From NCBI GenBank assembly GCA_903930515.1, contig CAIYYW010000237.1:1-11658 (forward strand): a stretch of DNA of 11,658 bases. The letters are read 5' to 3'. The first letter of the stretch is position 1; each line of letters starts with the position of its first letter. Shown piece after piece: positions 266-11,446 of this stretch. A program made the position numbers and the translations under genes. The notes beneath the pieces are model-generated. The model made no database searches and was not told where the DNA came from. It saw only the letters and a list, made by a program, of their open reading frames with translations. The DNA comes from an uncultured delta proteobacterium (GTDB lineage Bacteria; RBG-13-61-14; DRUE01).

Positions 266-1519
266 TCATTTTTTCAATTTGCAGATGTTTTGCGTCACCG
301 CTTTTCCGAAACCGGAGCAACTCACTTCTTTTGCTCCTTTCATCTGTCGGGCCAGGTCGTAGGTCACGATTTTATCAAGGATGGTTTTTTGCATTCCTTT
401 GCGGATCAACTCGCCGGCGGAGGTCCATCCCAAATAGTCAAACATCATTGCCCCGGAAAGGATCAGCGAGCCGGGATTGACCTTATCCTTGCCCGCGTAT
501 TTGGGAGCGGTGCCGTGGGTGGCTTCAAACACCGCGCAATGGTCTCCGATGTTGGCGCCGGGCGCCATTCCCAATCCGCCTACTTCAGCCGCGACCGCGT
601 CCGAGAGATAGTCTCCGTTCAAGTTGGGGGTCGCGATCACCTGGTATTCCGAGGGCCGGAGCAGCACTTGCTGGAACATCGCGTCCGCGATCCGGTCTTT
701 GATGATGACCTTGTCCGATGGACATCGGCCCGAGAATTTTTCGTTAAGCTCTTGCTCGGTGATGGTCTGATCCGAGAATTCTTCGCGCGCCAATTGGTAT
801 CCCCATTCGCAAAAGGCGCCTTCGGTGAATTTCATAATGTTGCCTTTATGCACGATGGTCACGCTCTGCCGATGATGGTCAACCGCATATTGGATCGCTC
901 TCCGCACCAGTCTCTTGGTATTGGACTCGCTGATCGGCTTGAGCCCGATGCCCGAATCTTGCGCGATCTCCACTCCCAAAGTTTTTTTCAGAAAAGATCT
1001 GAGCTTCGCAGCTTCCCGGGAACCTCTTTGCCATTCAATCCCGGCATAAACATCTTCCATATTCTCGCGGAAGATGATCATATCCACATCTTGCGGCTTC
1101 TTGAGCGGACTGGGCACGCCTTTAAGGTATTTGACCGGTCGGATGCAGGCATAAAGCTCAAGCGCCTGCCGGAGCTGGACATTGATGCTCCGGATCCCTC
1201 CCCCGACCGGGGTGGTGAGCGGGCCTTTGATGGTGAGATGAAAATCCCGGATCGCCTCCAGGGTTTCTTGCGGAAGCCATTTCCCGATTTTCTTGAAAGC
1301 CTTTTCCCCGGCAAAAATTTCCTTCCAAAAAACCTTCCGGCGGCCTTGGTAGGCCTGCGCGACCGCGACATCAAACACCGGCTGCGAGGCCTTCCAGATA
1401 TCCGGGCCGACGCCGTCCCCGATAATAAAGGGGATGATCAAATGATCGGGAACCTTCATTACTCCATTTTTATATGCAATGGCCTTTCCCGAAACCCTCA
1501 ACTTGGGCATTTTTTTCAT
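266..1519 (-). CDS. icd: Isocitrate dehydrogenase, NADP-dependent
   Basis: This enzyme oxidises and decarboxylates isocitrate to 2-oxoglutarate with NADP+ in the cytoplasm. From the start chosen it is 417 residues, close to the 416 of the E. coli enzyme. Visible family motifs are GDGVGPD near residue 34, the substrate loop [13 protein letters not shown] at 107-119 (S111 matches the E. coli phosphorylation serine), [16 protein letters not shown] at 148-163 and [18 protein letters not shown] at 334-351. K340, Y341, Y387 and R391 match the residues that set NADP preference in E. coli (K344, Y345, Y391, R395). The open frame reaches back to 1615, but that extension overlaps the upstream gene and reads as basic junk. 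The ATG at 1519 leaves a 16-base gap and restores normal length. The enzyme lies directly after the citrate synthase-like gene and is probably cotranscribed with it. Confidence 0.95.
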
Positions 1520-1535
1520 TGGGATTTCATTCCGA

Positions 1536-3404
1536 TCATTTTTCGGTATTTGCTTTTTCCTCTTCGCCGGCTTTTTGCTTTTCAAGCATCTCATCATATT
1601 TGACCAGTTGCTCAAACATTATATCCGTGCCGAGGATTCCCACGATTTCATCATTGGGATTGTAAATCGGCCCGGACACGGTGATGCAGAGGCGGTTGGT
1701 AATCTTGGAGGTATAGAAATCCGAGACAAAGACCTTGCCGGTCTTGACCGGGTTCTGAAACCAGGGCCGGTCGGAATAATCAAAGTCCATCCCGGCCTTT
1801 TCATAAAGGGCGCGGTCTTCAATATGGGTGATGTTGGGGGTAATCTTCTTGCCGTTGATATCCACGATGTAAACGAACTGGATGAAGGGATTGTCTTCCA
1901 GGAAACTCCGCAGCACCGGCACGATCAGTTCCGCTTTCATGGCGCGGATCTCGTCGCTTTCCACCAGTCTCTGGACCAGGTGCGCGGCCAGGGAATGGGC
2001 GTGTTTTTTAAGCCGGTCAAAGTCGGAGATGAACAGCTCAGGCAGATACTTGGCCGCCATATTATAGATTTCCTTGTGGCTGATCGCGGTGATCCGTCCT
2101 TTGTCGTATTCGGCCTGGACCCATTTGGCGAGCTTGATCACGCCCGGATGTTTCTTGTCCACCTGGCGGTCCCCCTCCAGCTTCAAATGGATGTTCAGCC
2201 ACCAGGCGATGCCGGCGTTGCCGGACTTGTCATTGATCAACACATCCACCGGCCGGTTCAAAATCTTGGCGGTGTCAAAGATATTATAGATCTCCTCGTT
2301 CTTGATCATCCCGTCCGCGTGGATCCCGGCCTGGGTGACATTGAACTGCTCGCCCACGAACGGGTAATTGGCCGGGATATGATCGCCGATTTCCTTCTGG
2401 TAGTATTCCGCGATCTCGGTGATCACCGCGGTGTCAATGCCGGAGGCGTTCCCGGTCAGGCCGATGTATTCCATAATCAAACCCTCAATGGGCGGGTTGC
2501 CGGTCCGCTCCCCCCATCCGAGCAGGGTGCCGTTGGCCGCGGAGCATCCGTAAATCCAGGCGGTGGCGGCGTTGATCAGGACTTTGTGAAAATCATTATG
2601 GCCGTGCCATTCCAGGCATTCTCCGGGAACGCCTGCGTCATCAATCATCCCCCGCACCCATTTGTCCACCGCGCGCGGAGCTGCCGCTCCCGGATAGGGC
2701 ACGCCGAACCCCATCGTGTCGCAAATCCTGATCTTGACTTTCTGTTTTGATTCCCGGGAAAGCTTCATCAACTCGGTCGCAAACGGAACGCAGAACCCGT
2801 AAAGGTCGGCGCGGGTCGCGTCTTCAAAATGACAGCGCGGCACAATCCCGCTCGCCAGCGCTTCCTTTACAATCGCCAAATAGCCGTCCATCGCCTGTTG
2901 CCGGGTCTTGTTCAGCTTGAGATAAATATGATAGTCGGACACCGAGGTCAGAATCCCGGTCTCGGCCAGTTCCATTTCCTTGACCAGTTTGAAATCCTGC
3001 GGATTGGCCCGGATCCAGCCGGTGATCTCCGGAAATTTCAAGCCCAGCTTCCGGCATTTTTCCACTGCTTCCTTGTCCTTTTTGGAATAGAGGAAAAATT
3101 CGCTCTGACGGATCACCCCGTTCGGTCCTCCCAGCTTGCTCATCATCTGAAACAAGGCCACCATCTGCTCCACGGTATAAGGCTTGCGCGCCTGCTGTCC
3201 GTCGCGGAAGGTGGTGTCCGTGATCACAATTTCATTGGCCGGACTGGGCCGGATGATCTTGAGATCAAACGGAACCTTGGGAACTTCCGAGTAAGGGAAA
3301 ATCTCGCGGAATAACTCCGGCTGAGAATGATCCTCCAGCTTGACCCGATTGCTCCTGGGCTTGAAACTCAACAGGAATCCTCTGCTCTCGTCTCGCTTGA
3401 CCAT
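1536..3404 (-). CDS. Re-citrate synthase-like HMGL-family enzyme with C-terminal Cache sensor domain
   Basis: This 622-residue protein has two parts. Residues about 55-460 are an HMGL/2-isopropylmalate synthase-type TIM barrel that condenses acetyl-CoA with a 2-oxo acid. Visible motifs are [11 protein letters not shown] (61-71), the metal-binding HGHND (267-271), [10 protein letters not shown] (297-306) and GIHADG (360-365). The sequence looks most like Re-citrate synthase, which makes citrate from oxaloacetate in anaerobes lacking ordinary citrate synthase. The icd gene 16 bases downstream supports that reading. Homocitrate or citramalate synthase activity is the main alternative. Residues about 475-605 are unlike the LeuA regulatory domain. 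[34 protein letters not shown] and [19 protein letters not shown] are hallmarks of a Cache sensor domain. No signal peptide or membrane segment is seen. The tail (606-622) is charged. The start is fixed by GAGGAGG five bases before the ATG. Confidence 0.85.
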
Positions 3405-7741: not shown

Positions 7742-9340
7742 ATGGCGGGCAATCCCAAAGTTCTCTTCAGCTCGGTGTTCAAGCCGTTCGCGGAGGCGGA
7801 CAATCTATATTCCCGTCTGGATTCCAAGATTGAGTTGTTCCATAACCAGATCACCAAGTACCAGGGGATTTTCAGCCCGCGCATCCATTACCACACCTTC
7901 GGTCTGCACGCGATCGCGAACAACCTGGGAGAAGCGAGCGTGGTGTTGGACTATCCGACCCTGGACCTGTTCATCCAAGAGATCAGGAAGGGCTATGACT
8001 ATGTCGGGATCGGGTCCATCACCCCCAATTTCAACAAGGTGAAGCGGATGACCGAGGAGATCCGGAAACACAGCCCGCAGAGCAAGATCGTGATCGGGGG
8101 ATTTTGCGCGATGATCCCGGACCTGAAGCAGTTGCTGGATGTTGATTATGTCTGCGTCGGGGAGGGGATCAGCTTTATGAAGGAGCTGCTGGGGAAACCG
8201 CCCGAGTTCTGTTTCCGTCAGCCGGATATGCTTTCCGAGACCAGGGAGTTGCTGGGCGTGCCTTTTTTTTGGGGAGACTACCACCCGTTCATCGCGGTCG
8301 GACTGGGCTGCCCCTATGCCTGCGATTTTTGCTGTCCCAGCCATTTTTTCGGCAAGAAGCATATCAAGCTGCTTCCAACCGGCGAGCGGATTTTCCAGGA
8401 GATTGTCCGGCTGGGCAAAAAATTTCGGACCAGCTCGTTCGGCCTGGGAGGGGATGATAATTTTTTAGCCGACCCGGAGCGGGCCAGGCAGCTTCGGGAA
8501 CAGGTGGTCAAGAGCGGGATGCAGATCAAGCTATTCCTGTTCGCGAGCGCGGACCTGCTCGCGCAGTGGGAGCCGGAGCAATTGGCGGAAATGGGCGCGA
8601 GCGTGATCTGGATCGGAAGGGAGAGCCGCTCCGCTCCTTACGGCAAAAACCGGGGCATTGATCTGAAAGCCTTGATTGATCGGCTCCGGGAAGTCGGGAT
8701 CAAGGTGATCCTGAGTTCCATTCTCCTGTTTGATTTCCATACCAAAGAAAATATCTGGGCGGATGTGGAAGATCATTTGGCCTGCCGACCGGCTTTCAGC
8801 CAGTTCGCCTTTTACTCGCCGATGCCGGGAAGCCCGCTCTACCAACGGATGAAGAGCGAGGGGAAGCTCCTGGAAAATATTCCGTTTGAGGAATGGCATT
8901 CGTTCAAGCAGCCCTGGTTCATCCATCCGGAATTCACCCTGACGGAAGCGGAGAAAATCCAGGAGAGAGCGTATCTTGATGATTTTTACCGGCTGGGACC
9001 GAGCATTGTGCGCCTGATCCGGGACGAGCTGGAGGGATATTTGCGTATGCGCGAATCCGGAAACCCGAGGCTCCGGGACCGGGCGGAATTTTTCGCCAAG
9101 GATTTTGCAAGGTATCGGGCGATCCTGCGGGCTTGCGAAAGCCTGGTGCCCAAGCCGGAGATGCGGGAGCAGGCTCGGGAGATCCGGGCCCGTCTGGAAC
9201 AGGTTACCAAAAAAATCGGGATCATTGAAAATGTGGGAGCGCTGGGCCTTTACGGCTTCGGCCGGTTCCGGGAATTCCGCACCCGCCATTTCGGAGATGC
9301 CATCCAGCCCAAGACCAAGATTACTTATTATCCCGGCTGA
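7742..9340 (+). CDS. Radical SAM protein with N-terminal B12-binding-like domain and distinctive C-terminal tail
   Basis: This 532-residue protein begins with a degenerate cobalamin-binding-like domain (about 1-165) showing YDYVGIGSI (85-93), KIVIGGF (115-121) and DYVCVGEG (135-142). It lacks a clear DxHxxG B12 ligand motif. The radical SAM core follows with GLGCPYACDFCC, in which C190, C194 and C197 are the cluster ligands and C198 is an extra adjacent cysteine. Later core features are FGLGGDDNF (233-241) and YSPMPGSPLYQRM (358-370). The last 100 residues form a helical, arginine-rich segment ending in LGLYGFG (501-507), RTRHFGD (513-519) and IQPKT (521-525). The reaction is unknown. The N-terminal half is unlike the other radical SAM protein in the window, so this is a separate family. 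A decayed tandem copy follows after 72 bases, then two small sensor-like proteins. Confidence 0.9.
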   Translation: MAGNPKVLFSSVFKPFAEADNLYSRLDSKIELFHNQITKYQGIFSPRIHYHTFGLHAIANNLGEASVVLDYPTLDLFIQEIRKGYDYVGIGSITPNFNKVKRMTEEIRKHSPQSKIVIGGFCAMIPDLKQLLDVDYVCVGEGISFMKELLGKPPEFCFRQPDMLSETRELLGVPFFWGDYHPFIAVGLGCPYACDFCCPSHFFGKKHIKLLPTGERIFQEIVRLGKKFRTSSFGLGGDDNFLADPERARQLREQVVKSGMQIKLFLFASADLLAQWEPEQLAEMGASVIWIGRESRSAPYGKNRGIDLKALIDRLREVGIKVILSSILLFDFHTKENIWADVEDHLACRPAFSQFAFYSPMPGSPLYQRMKSEGKLLENIPFEEWHSFKQPWFIHPEFTLTEAEKIQERAYLDDFYRLGPSIVRLIRDELEGYLRMRESGNPRLRDRAEFFAKDFARYRAILRACESLVPKPEMREQAREIRARLEQVTKKIGIIENVGALGLYGFGRFREFRTRHFGDAIQPKTKITYYPG

Positions 9341-9412: not shown

Positions 9413-10026
9413 ATGGAAGGAATTCCCAAAATATTATTCAGCTCGGTGTTCAAGCCGTTCGCGGAGCGGACAGCCTTTACTCCCGGAAGGATTCCAAGAT
9501 CGAGTTGTTCCATAACCAGATCACCAAGTACCAGGGCGTGTTCGGCCCGCGCGTGACCTATCATACCTTCGGCCTCCATACCATCGCCAACAACCTGGGA
9601 GTTCCTTCGGTGGCGCTAGAGTTCCCGACCCTGGATCGTTTCATCCGGGAAATCAAAAATGGGTATGACTACATCGGGATCGGGAGTATCGGCCTGAATT
9701 TCCAGACGGTGCGGCGGATGCGCGACTCCAAGAATCCCATCCTGCGGGAGCGGGCGGAGATGCTGGCGCAGAGCTTTTTCCGCTACCGGGCGGTGCTTAA
9801 GGGTTCGGCCTGGCTGGCGCCGACGCTTACGCTGCAGGAACAAATCCTTCAAGTGCTCGCGGGAGTGGAAGAGGTTTCCAGCCGGACCGGCCTGGTGGAA
9901 AGAGCGGCCGGACTGGGCCTTTACGGGTTCGGGAGCCTCCGTCGGATCCGGACCAGGTTTTTCGGAGACACGATCCAGCCCAGGACCACGCTCACCCGTT
10001 ACTCCGGGTCCGGCGGTTTATCTTAA
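9413..10026 (+). pseudogene. Decayed tandem copy of the radical SAM gene, core deleted and frameshifted
   Basis: From the ATG at 9413 (AGGA three bases upstream) the sequence aligns with the preceding gene. One G is missing around 9466-9467 (GCGGAGCGGAC against GCGGAGGCGGAC), which breaks the frame after about 18 codons. With that base restored the product is 204 residues. The first 103 match residues 1-103 of the intact gene (about 78 of 103 identical, counted by hand). The frame then jumps straight to residues 437-532. Exactly 333 codons (999 nt) are absent, including the GG/GEG part of the Rossmann domain and the entire radical SAM core with its three cysteines. The C-terminal tail is kept but less similar, with GLYGFG, RTRFFGD and IQPRT. 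A frame from 9505 to 10026 stays open. Catalysis is impossible without the core, so this is probably a relic. A sequencing error at the frameshift would leave a core-less small protein. Confidence 0.85.
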
Positions 10027-10039
10027 ATCGGATGTGTAG

Positions 10040-10068
10040 TTGTATTTATGCAAGCCGCGGGGTATAAT
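10040..10068 (+). promoter_or_regulatory. Promoter of the first small paralogue
   Basis: TTGTAT (10040-10045), a 17-base spacer and a perfect TATAAT (10063-10068) give a start near 10075 and a leader of about 69 bases before the ATG at 10144. The promoter begins 14 bases after the pseudogene stop, so the pair of small genes can be expressed independently of the radical SAM locus. Confidence 0.55.
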
Positions 10069-10143
10069 AACGCTCCGTTAAAGATTGATATTGGTTTTGG
10101 GACAAGCGCCGGCCAAGAATCTAAAAATGGAAAGGGGAAGTTC

Positions 10144-10722
10144 ATGGCAGAGGTCAGCGGGAGAGCGCTCCTGGGATTGATCAAGGTTATCAAAGCGGAA
10201 TTCGGTCCGGATTCCCTTCGCGATTTATTGAAGGGAGCGGACGCGGAAATGGCAAAGGTTTTCGGCAGATCAATCATGATCCTGAATTGGTATCCCTATC
10301 CGGTATATGTTTATCTGCTCACCGCCATTGACCGCAAAATGGGTAAGGGAGACCTGGCTTATTGCAAAAAGCTGGGAGAAAACGCCGCCAGCCTTGACTT
10401 GCATTCCATGCTCACGGCATTTAACGCGCGGGGCGGCCAGCGCGATTTGATCAAAAGCTGCACCATGGTCTGGTCCAATTATTACCGCGGCGCGGGCCGG
10501 ATGGAAGCTCTCTCCTGCGAGCCGGATAACACGGTGTTGCGCATCACCGATTTCCCGGAAATGGACCCGGCCCATTGCCGCTTGATGGAGGGCTGGATGA
10601 CCGAGGCGATGAAGATGATCGGCACCCGGGTGCTCACCGGGCTTACGGAAGTCAAGTGCATGAGCAAGGGCGGGCCTTATCACGAGTTCATTTGCACTTG
10701 GACGCTTTTGAATCCCAAATAA
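10144..10722 (+). CDS. DUF2378/TIGR02265-like or V4R-like sensor-type protein (paralogue 1)
   Basis: This 192-residue soluble protein has no signal peptide or membrane segment. The pattern LGENAASLDLHS, GGQRDLI, MVWSNYYRGAGRME and a G-rich C-terminal strand before a final W resembles the DUF2378 (TIGR02265) family best known from myxobacteria. The end, with C172 in KCMSKGG and HEF at 180-182, recalls V4R small-molecule-binding domains. Both identifications are from memory of family patterns and are tentative. The signature FPEMDPAHCRLMEGW (137-151) is identical in the next gene. Hand alignment over 188 positions gives about 102 identities with no gap. The open frame extends back to 10048, but AAGGGGAAG just before 10144 and the alignment of both N termini (MAEV) choose the later ATG. 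The role is unknown. A sensory or ligand-binding function is inference. Confidence 0.85.
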   Translation: MAEVSGRALLGLIKVIKAEFGPDSLRDLLKGADAEMAKVFGRSIMILNWYPYPVYVYLLTAIDRKMGKGDLAYCKKLGENAASLDLHSMLTAFNARGGQRDLIKSCTMVWSNYYRGAGRMEALSCEPDNTVLRITDFPEMDPAHCRLMEGWMTEAMKMIGTRVLTGLTEVKCMSKGGPYHEFICTWTLLNPK

Positions 10723-10879: not shown

Positions 10880-11446
10880 ATGGCTGAAGTAAACGGAAGG
10901 GAATTCCTGGGCCTGATCAAGCACATCAAGGAAAGCCGGGGCGCGGACTTTCTCAAGGAAGTGCTGGATCAGGCCGGAGAAGTTAACCGCAAGATTTTTT
11001 CCAAACGGGTTTTGGCTTTAGGCTGGTATCCCTATCAGGGTTATGTGGACCTGATCCGGGCGATTGCCAAGAAAATGGGCAACGGGGACCCGGCTTATTT
11101 CCGGAAGCTGGGGGAGGTCGCGGCCAGTCTGGACCTGGGGTCTTTCCTTAATGTCTATAAGATTTCCGGCGGGCCAGAGGAACTGATCCAGGCCGCGGGT
11201 ATGGTCTGGCCCGGATATTACCGCAACGCCGGAAAGATGGAGGTGAATTCCTCCCAACCCGAAAATACCGTGATTCGGATCCTGGATTTTCCCGAGATGG
11301 ATCCCGCGCATTGCCGTCTGATGGAAGGCTGGATCACCGCGGCGATGGTCATCCTGGGAGGGAAAATGGTCTCCCCGGCCCGGGAAACGATGTGTATGAG
11401 CAAAGGGGATTCTTGCCACGAATTCACTTTTACCTGGACGGCCTGA
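10880..11446 (+). CDS. DUF2378/TIGR02265-like or V4R-like sensor-type protein (paralogue 2)
   Basis: This 188-residue protein is a close paralogue of the preceding one. The same blocks are present: WYPY (49-52), KKMGNGDPAYFRKLGE (64-79), AASLDLGS (81-88), MVWPGYYR (108-115), the signature FPEMDPAHCRLMEGW (137-151) and CMSKGDSCHEF (172-182). Here C172 and C179 form a Cx6C pair. In paralogue 1 the second position is Y, so metal binding by this pair would be unique to this copy. C145 and C172 are shared. No membrane segment or DNA-binding motif is apparent. Tandem duplication with about 54% identity suggests an old duplication with both copies kept under selection. The ligand and partner are unknown. 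The neighbouring radical SAM locus is the only contextual hint. Confidence 0.85.
   Translation: MAEVNGREFLGLIKHIKESRGADFLKEVLDQAGEVNRKIFSKRVLALGWYPYQGYVDLIRAIAKKMGNGDPAYFRKLGEVAASLDLGSFLNVYKISGGPEELIQAAGMVWPGYYRNAGKMEVNSSQPENTVIRILDFPEMDPAHCRLMEGWITAAMVILGGKMVSPARETMCMSKGDSCHEFTFTWTA

Follow-up and report, generated by a model that had tools for sequence, protein, structure and literature searches.

Re-citrate synthases are enzymes of the HMGL/IPMS superfamily found in anaerobes that have no Si-citrate synthase. Those of Clostridium kluyveri and Syntrophus aciditrophicus are said to have been described by Li in 2007 and by Kim in 2013, and the S. aciditrophicus subunit reportedly has a mass of about 72 kDa, a size that would fit a fusion. 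Barrels of the HMGL type work as dimers, and Cache/PDC domains often dimerise as well. The two proven enzymes fall in one group (PMC12016533). Bacillota homologues, mostly 50-62% identical to the barrel considered here, end near residue 460 and carry no Cache domain. 2-isopropylmalate synthase offers a second comparison, joining a barrel of this kind to a C-terminal LeuA module.

The gene described here lies in a window of 11,658 nucleotides (the whole stretch of DNA that was analysed) and encodes a barrel of the same superfamily, followed not by LeuA_dimer but by a Cache domain, in one reading frame opening with an ATG (Table 1); its full-length homologues are up to 83% identical. Our preferred reading, to which a probability of roughly 0.6 may be given, is that of a Re-citrate synthase in which the C-terminal cytoplasmic Cache domain would serve as an allosteric regulatory module responding to a small carboxylate, likely an amino acid. 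The literature searched, on Cache domains in Re-citrate synthase, on HMGL-like proteins bearing dCache_1, on Cache domains in the cytoplasm and on soluble chemoreceptors that carry Cache, yielded no description of such a fusion and none of the regulation of Re-citrate synthase. The architecture is probably already listed in protein-domain databases.

Table 1. Features of the fusion gene and its downstream neighbour (window positions)
Feature	Position	Strand	Basis
Re-citrate synthase-Cache fusion gene (predicted)	1536..3404	-	622 aa, ORF without internal stop
HMGL-type catalytic barrel, residues 59-333	2406..3230	-	PF00682, E 2.3e-27
Post-barrel subdomains and helical linker, residues 334-467	2004..2405	-	weak HCS_D2 match 356-381; model helices 395-481
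Cytoplasmic Cache domain, residues 468-605	1590..2003	-	PF22673/PF02743, structure model, fold search
R546, putative carboxylate-binding Arg	1767..1769	-	R in 110/119 fusions; aligns with PctA R126, KinD R131
W548, putative pocket Trp	1761..1763	-	119/119 fusions; PctA W128
S566, putative pocket Ser	1707..1709	-	119/119 fusions; PctA D146 position, Ser in KinD
D594, putative amine-binding Asp	1623..1625	-	118/119 fusions; PctA D173 position
NADP-dependent isocitrate dehydrogenase (ICDH)	266..1519	-	TIGR00183, 645 bits vs cut-off 567

The barrel as a predicted Re-citrate synthase

The HMGL/IPMS type that the earlier note had assigned to the catalytic barrel is borne out by the Pfam match and by the metal-binding and catalytic residues R67, D68, E194, H267 and H269, which are invariant in 61 aligned relatives. 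The motifs RDGQQ, HFED, HGHND and AGIHADG are likewise invariant among the aligned relatives, the last of them (residues 359-365) lying in the post-barrel part of the protein.

Gene context points the same way as the motifs. The ATG of ICDH is placed 16 nt past the stop codon of the synthase, on the same strand. Among 127 Cache-bearing loci, aspS precedes the fusion in 51, and downstream of it 12 have an aconitase-family gene and 24 have ICDH; wherever these neighbours were found they share one strand and one order, exemplified by aspS-CS-acn-acnS-icd on one Syntrophorhabdales contig. In Desulfobacterota-type genomes, including at least nine of the loci inspected, the fusion gene is preceded on the same strand by hisS-aspS or by aspS. 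Desulfovibrio is cited as a user of Re-citrate synthase (PMC12016533), and at seven loci on Desulfovibrio contigs the fusion stands directly before ICDH. A search of the source genome with the Si-citrate synthase family PF00285 gave no match, 13 of 14 control genomes being positive, although this absence is not absolute because the genome is 93% complete. The same genome holds two further HMGL paralogues (524 and 536 aa) located elsewhere, one of which adjoins a gene of LeuC/aconitase type, and a second aconitase-family ORF of 643 aa.

On the strength of the conserved motifs, the ICDH and aconitase context, the lack of a detected Si-citrate synthase and the Desulfovibrio fusions, the barrel is predicted with high confidence to be a Re-citrate synthase, which would convert acetyl-CoA and oxaloacetate to citrate; the earlier note, too, had proposed a citrate synthase-like enzyme. 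Another HMGL-type activity (homocitrate, isopropylmalate or citramalate synthase) seems very improbable. It is true that the best NCBIfam scores of the barrel are those of the nifV, LEU1 and LeuA models, and that the closest solved structure to the whole-chain AlphaFold2 model (61 aligned relatives, mean pLDDT 86) is a homocitrate synthase (6ktq, E 3.5e-22). However, the matches to the homocitrate, isopropylmalate and citramalate models remain far below their curated cut-offs (130 vs 463 for nifV), the gene has NADP-dependent ICDH as its partner and, in relatives, aconitase, and the genome has separate LeuA/CimA-like paralogues with no other citrate synthase found.

Elsewhere in the window, an ORF at 9505-10026 (+) resembles the radical SAM/B12 protein encoded at 7742-9340 in its N- and C-terminal parts but lacks the middle, and looks like a truncated duplicate of it. 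A pair of tandem paralogues (about 190-220 aa; 10048-10722 and 10880-11446, both +) adjoins the radical SAM genes; neither has a significant Pfam match, the second reaching V4R at E 0.12.

A Cache domain with a putative carboxylate pocket

The C-terminal part of the protein is a genuine Cache/PDC domain. Pfam places MCP-like_PDC_1 (PF22673) at residues 496-600 (E 1.8e-17, 64.2 bits vs a cut-off of 27) and dCache_1 (PF02743) at 478-600 (E 5e-13, 49.5 bits vs a cut-off of 45), and a match to PF22673/PF02743 is present in all 57 aligned members. Modelled alone with these 57 relatives, the region reaches a pLDDT of 92.4 and a pTM of 0.87 and displays the PDC/Cache fold, with a long N-terminal helix (463-481) and central strands. 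Foldseek and VIA match the model to KinD, WalK, Tlp3, CtaA, Mlp24, CitA, DctB, PctA and PctC (VIA Z 13-15.5), and all top fold matches are Cache/PDC sensors. The median column identity of the domain is 62% across 119 distinct fusions, and comparison with a same-genus genome gives a dN/dS of 0.19, a value which indicates purifying selection. The Cache hallmarks recognised by the earlier note are thus real, while the domain extends well beyond the residues 542-595 assigned to it there, to about 468-605. A chance Cache match is ruled out by profile, fold and conservation, and a LeuA regulatory fold for the tail by the fold search and by the Pfam scan of the 622-aa protein, in which LeuA_dimer has no match.

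In PctA-type receptors R126, W128 and D173 contact amino acid ligands, R126 and W128 binding the carboxylate and D146 and D173 the amino group (PMC6974571, PMC10104139). PctA, Tlp3, CtaA and Mlp24, which belong to dCache_1, share the Cache fold with the enzyme domain (VIA Z about 13-14), although theirs are periplasmic double Cache domains and that of the fusion is single and cytoplasmic. Equivalents of R126, W128 and D173 are kept in 92%, 100% and 99% of the 119 fusions, the Y129 position is Phe in 98% and the Y144 position is Tyr in 86%; all four putative pocket residues (R546, W548, S566 and D594) occur together in 109 of the 119, with R546 missing in about 8%. Unlike in PctA, the position of Y121 (residue 541) is variable and D146 is replaced by Ser, which leaves the dCache_1AA motif incomplete, and an amino acid was rejected as a settled ligand on this ground. 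The Arg, Trp and Asp speak for a ligand-binding Cache domain more than for an amino acid as such, because they are common across dCache_1 domains. Judged by these residues, the pocket looks built for a small carboxylate, in which D594 favours an amino acid and S566 together with the variable Y121 position leaves keto acids possible.

The same enzyme and sensor might instead respond to a carboxylate lacking the amino group, such as pyruvate, 2-oxoglutarate, oxaloacetate or another small acid, with feed-forward by a substrate or feedback by 2-oxoglutarate. The top fold match of the domain is KinD (VIA Z 15.5), a pyruvate-binding double PDC sensor (PMC8534201) that forms the extracytoplasmic part of a histidine kinase, and the profile alignment with KinD shares R131, a Ser and the next Thr (YSSRITG; YTSRITG in many fusions), R131 being the residue altered in a deposited R131A mutant and aligned with R546. 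The second Asp of the amino acid receptors, moreover, is Ser in the fusions. Such a ligand is nevertheless unlikely, if worth serious consideration, since D594, present in all fusions but one, matches PctA's amine-binding Asp in the alignment, where KinD has Ala. One fusion, locus L083 on contig C21 of genome G037, has His at this otherwise invariant position, and its ORF runs on into an Arg-rich repeat tail of the ERRSGTERR type.

A purely structural Cache domain, bringing synthase subunits together as dimers or larger assemblies without any sensing, would suit the dimerising habit of both domain families. It is an improbable explanation, though, as the putative pocket positions R546, W548, S566 and D594 are among the best conserved Cache columns; Cache-less homologues are also common, so assembly would not need the domain.

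For an allosteric module responding to a small carboxylate, likely an amino acid, we infer ligand, sign and route of regulation as follows. The Cache domain would bind the carboxylate through the putative R546 and W548, D594 suggesting a ligand that bears an amino group; the likeliest candidate may be an amino acid that ends the pathway fed by the enzyme or stands close to that end, namely glutamate or a derivative of it, or aspartate. Binding would then change synthase activity via the helical linker and the dimer. Since carbon that passes the enzyme is committed to 2-oxoglutarate, feedback by the glutamate family is the simplest proposal. The principle, end-product allostery, would be that of 2-isopropylmalate synthase, on which leucine acts through the unrelated LeuA domain, and implies no shared ancestry of the regulatory domains. 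The suggestion in the earlier note that ligand sensing by the Cache domain controls the entry of carbon into the oxidative TCA branch is therefore plausible.

Spread and history of the fusion

The domain pair, whose spread the earlier note could not judge, proves widespread in Desulfobacterota-type genomes, in Nitrospirota and in some Spirochaetota. A profile scan of genome contigs returned at least 584 relatives, and the best 80 of these loci all span the Cache domain except one from Bacillota, one from Brocadiaceae and a few that are cut or masked; these 80 come from Desulfobacterota, Nitrospirota, Spirochaetota, Lentisphaerota, Omnitrophota, Elusimicrobiota and further groups. By sample, the enzyme is present in 119 of 247 Desulfobacterota-type genomes, with a Cache domain on 113 of 116 complete copies, and in 31 of 118 Nitrospirota genomes, none of them clearly Cache-less. 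Spirochaetota are mixed (27 of 120 genomes; 11 copies with the Cache domain and 18 without it), both kinds occurring together in two genomes, and no Cache domain accompanies the enzyme in the samples of Bacillota (26 of 249 genomes) and Planctomycetota (8 of 119).

Since barrel and Cache domain form one gene in 119 distinct relatives, aligned over their full length, a local start/stop or assembly error, which would have split the two parts into separate genes, is ruled out. The earlier note had regarded the Cache domain as a replacement of LeuA. LeuA is indeed missing, but the Cache domain is an addition more than a replacement, because Cache-less homologues stop around residue 460 and carry no regulatory domain at all. 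A tblastn search with the Cache domain around the Bacillota and Planctomycetota loci it covered found no separate Cache ORF near the gene. Catalysis does not depend on the domain, since many homologues (Bacillota, Planctomycetota and part of Spirochaetota) lack it.

Set against the other Cache domains compared, those of 98 fusion enzymes group in a single clade (100/100). Distances between barrels track those between Cache domains with a correlation of r 0.76, and none of 1000 permutations exceeded 0.18. These two results argue for a single old fusion that was then inherited as a unit and kept over several phyla. The attachment of the outside Cache branch is unsure, long rows being joined there. 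The barrel tree requires 6-7 changes of Cache state, at least 2 of them forced by starred branches; gain and loss of the domain are not separable in direction on this tree, whose outgroup branch is very long.

A cytoplasmic Cache lineage and its possible meaning

No signal peptide was found in the 622-aa fusion protein and, because the highest 19-residue hydropathy is 0.99, no membrane segment, in agreement with the cytoplasmic placement given by the earlier note. The usual extracytoplasmic location of Cache domains is thus absent here, and being a trait that is not universal it is not a defining one. The Cache families YkuI_C and Diacid_rec are mostly intracellular (PMC4822843), so that a cytoplasmic Cache domain is unusual, yet has precedent. 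YkuI_C of EAL proteins resembles the enzyme domain in being a cytoplasmic C-terminal domain of Cache type, with a weak Pfam match (E 0.008 to 0.0006) and a fold match, but is joined to an EAL domain. One EAL protein that was read (L199) carries a C-terminal domain of the enzyme-Cache type, in which the pocket residues differ.

When the enzyme Cache profile was run on the Desulfobacterota-type sample, three score levels were obtained: the fusions below E 1e-44, a small set of proteins between 1e-25 and 1e-33, and all others no stronger than about 1e-14. Where members of the middle set were read (nine loci), an MCP signalling domain is followed by a C-terminal Cache domain, which its position behind the signalling domain places in the cytoplasm; five of these chemoreceptors have no membrane segment obvious by eye. 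On these scores, the closest relatives that the enzyme Cache domain has outside the fusions are the C-terminal, likewise cytoplasmic Cache domains of chemoreceptors, and since the subfamily occupies this position there too, a cytoplasmic location is normal for this branch. It is tempting, if doubtful, to go further and to see in this distinct Cache lineage an exchangeable intracellular metabolite-sensing module, which was fused once to Re-citrate synthase as an allosteric switch and is also carried by chemoreceptors, several of them apparently soluble, which would let a single internal metabolite, such as glutamate, inform both central carbon flux and chemotaxis.

Under the preferred reading, a synthase under allosteric control by its own Cache domain, Re-citrate synthases with the domain should be regulated differently from those without it, and the Spirochaetota genomes with both types (G690 and G726) provide a natural comparison. 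If this reading is true, a Cache domain on a metabolic enzyme would serve as a cytoplasmic allosteric domain. In many anaerobes Re-citrate synthase opens the route to 2-oxoglutarate and glutamate, and the presence of the fusion in many anaerobic species suggests a switch placed on the very step that feeds carbon towards glutamate.
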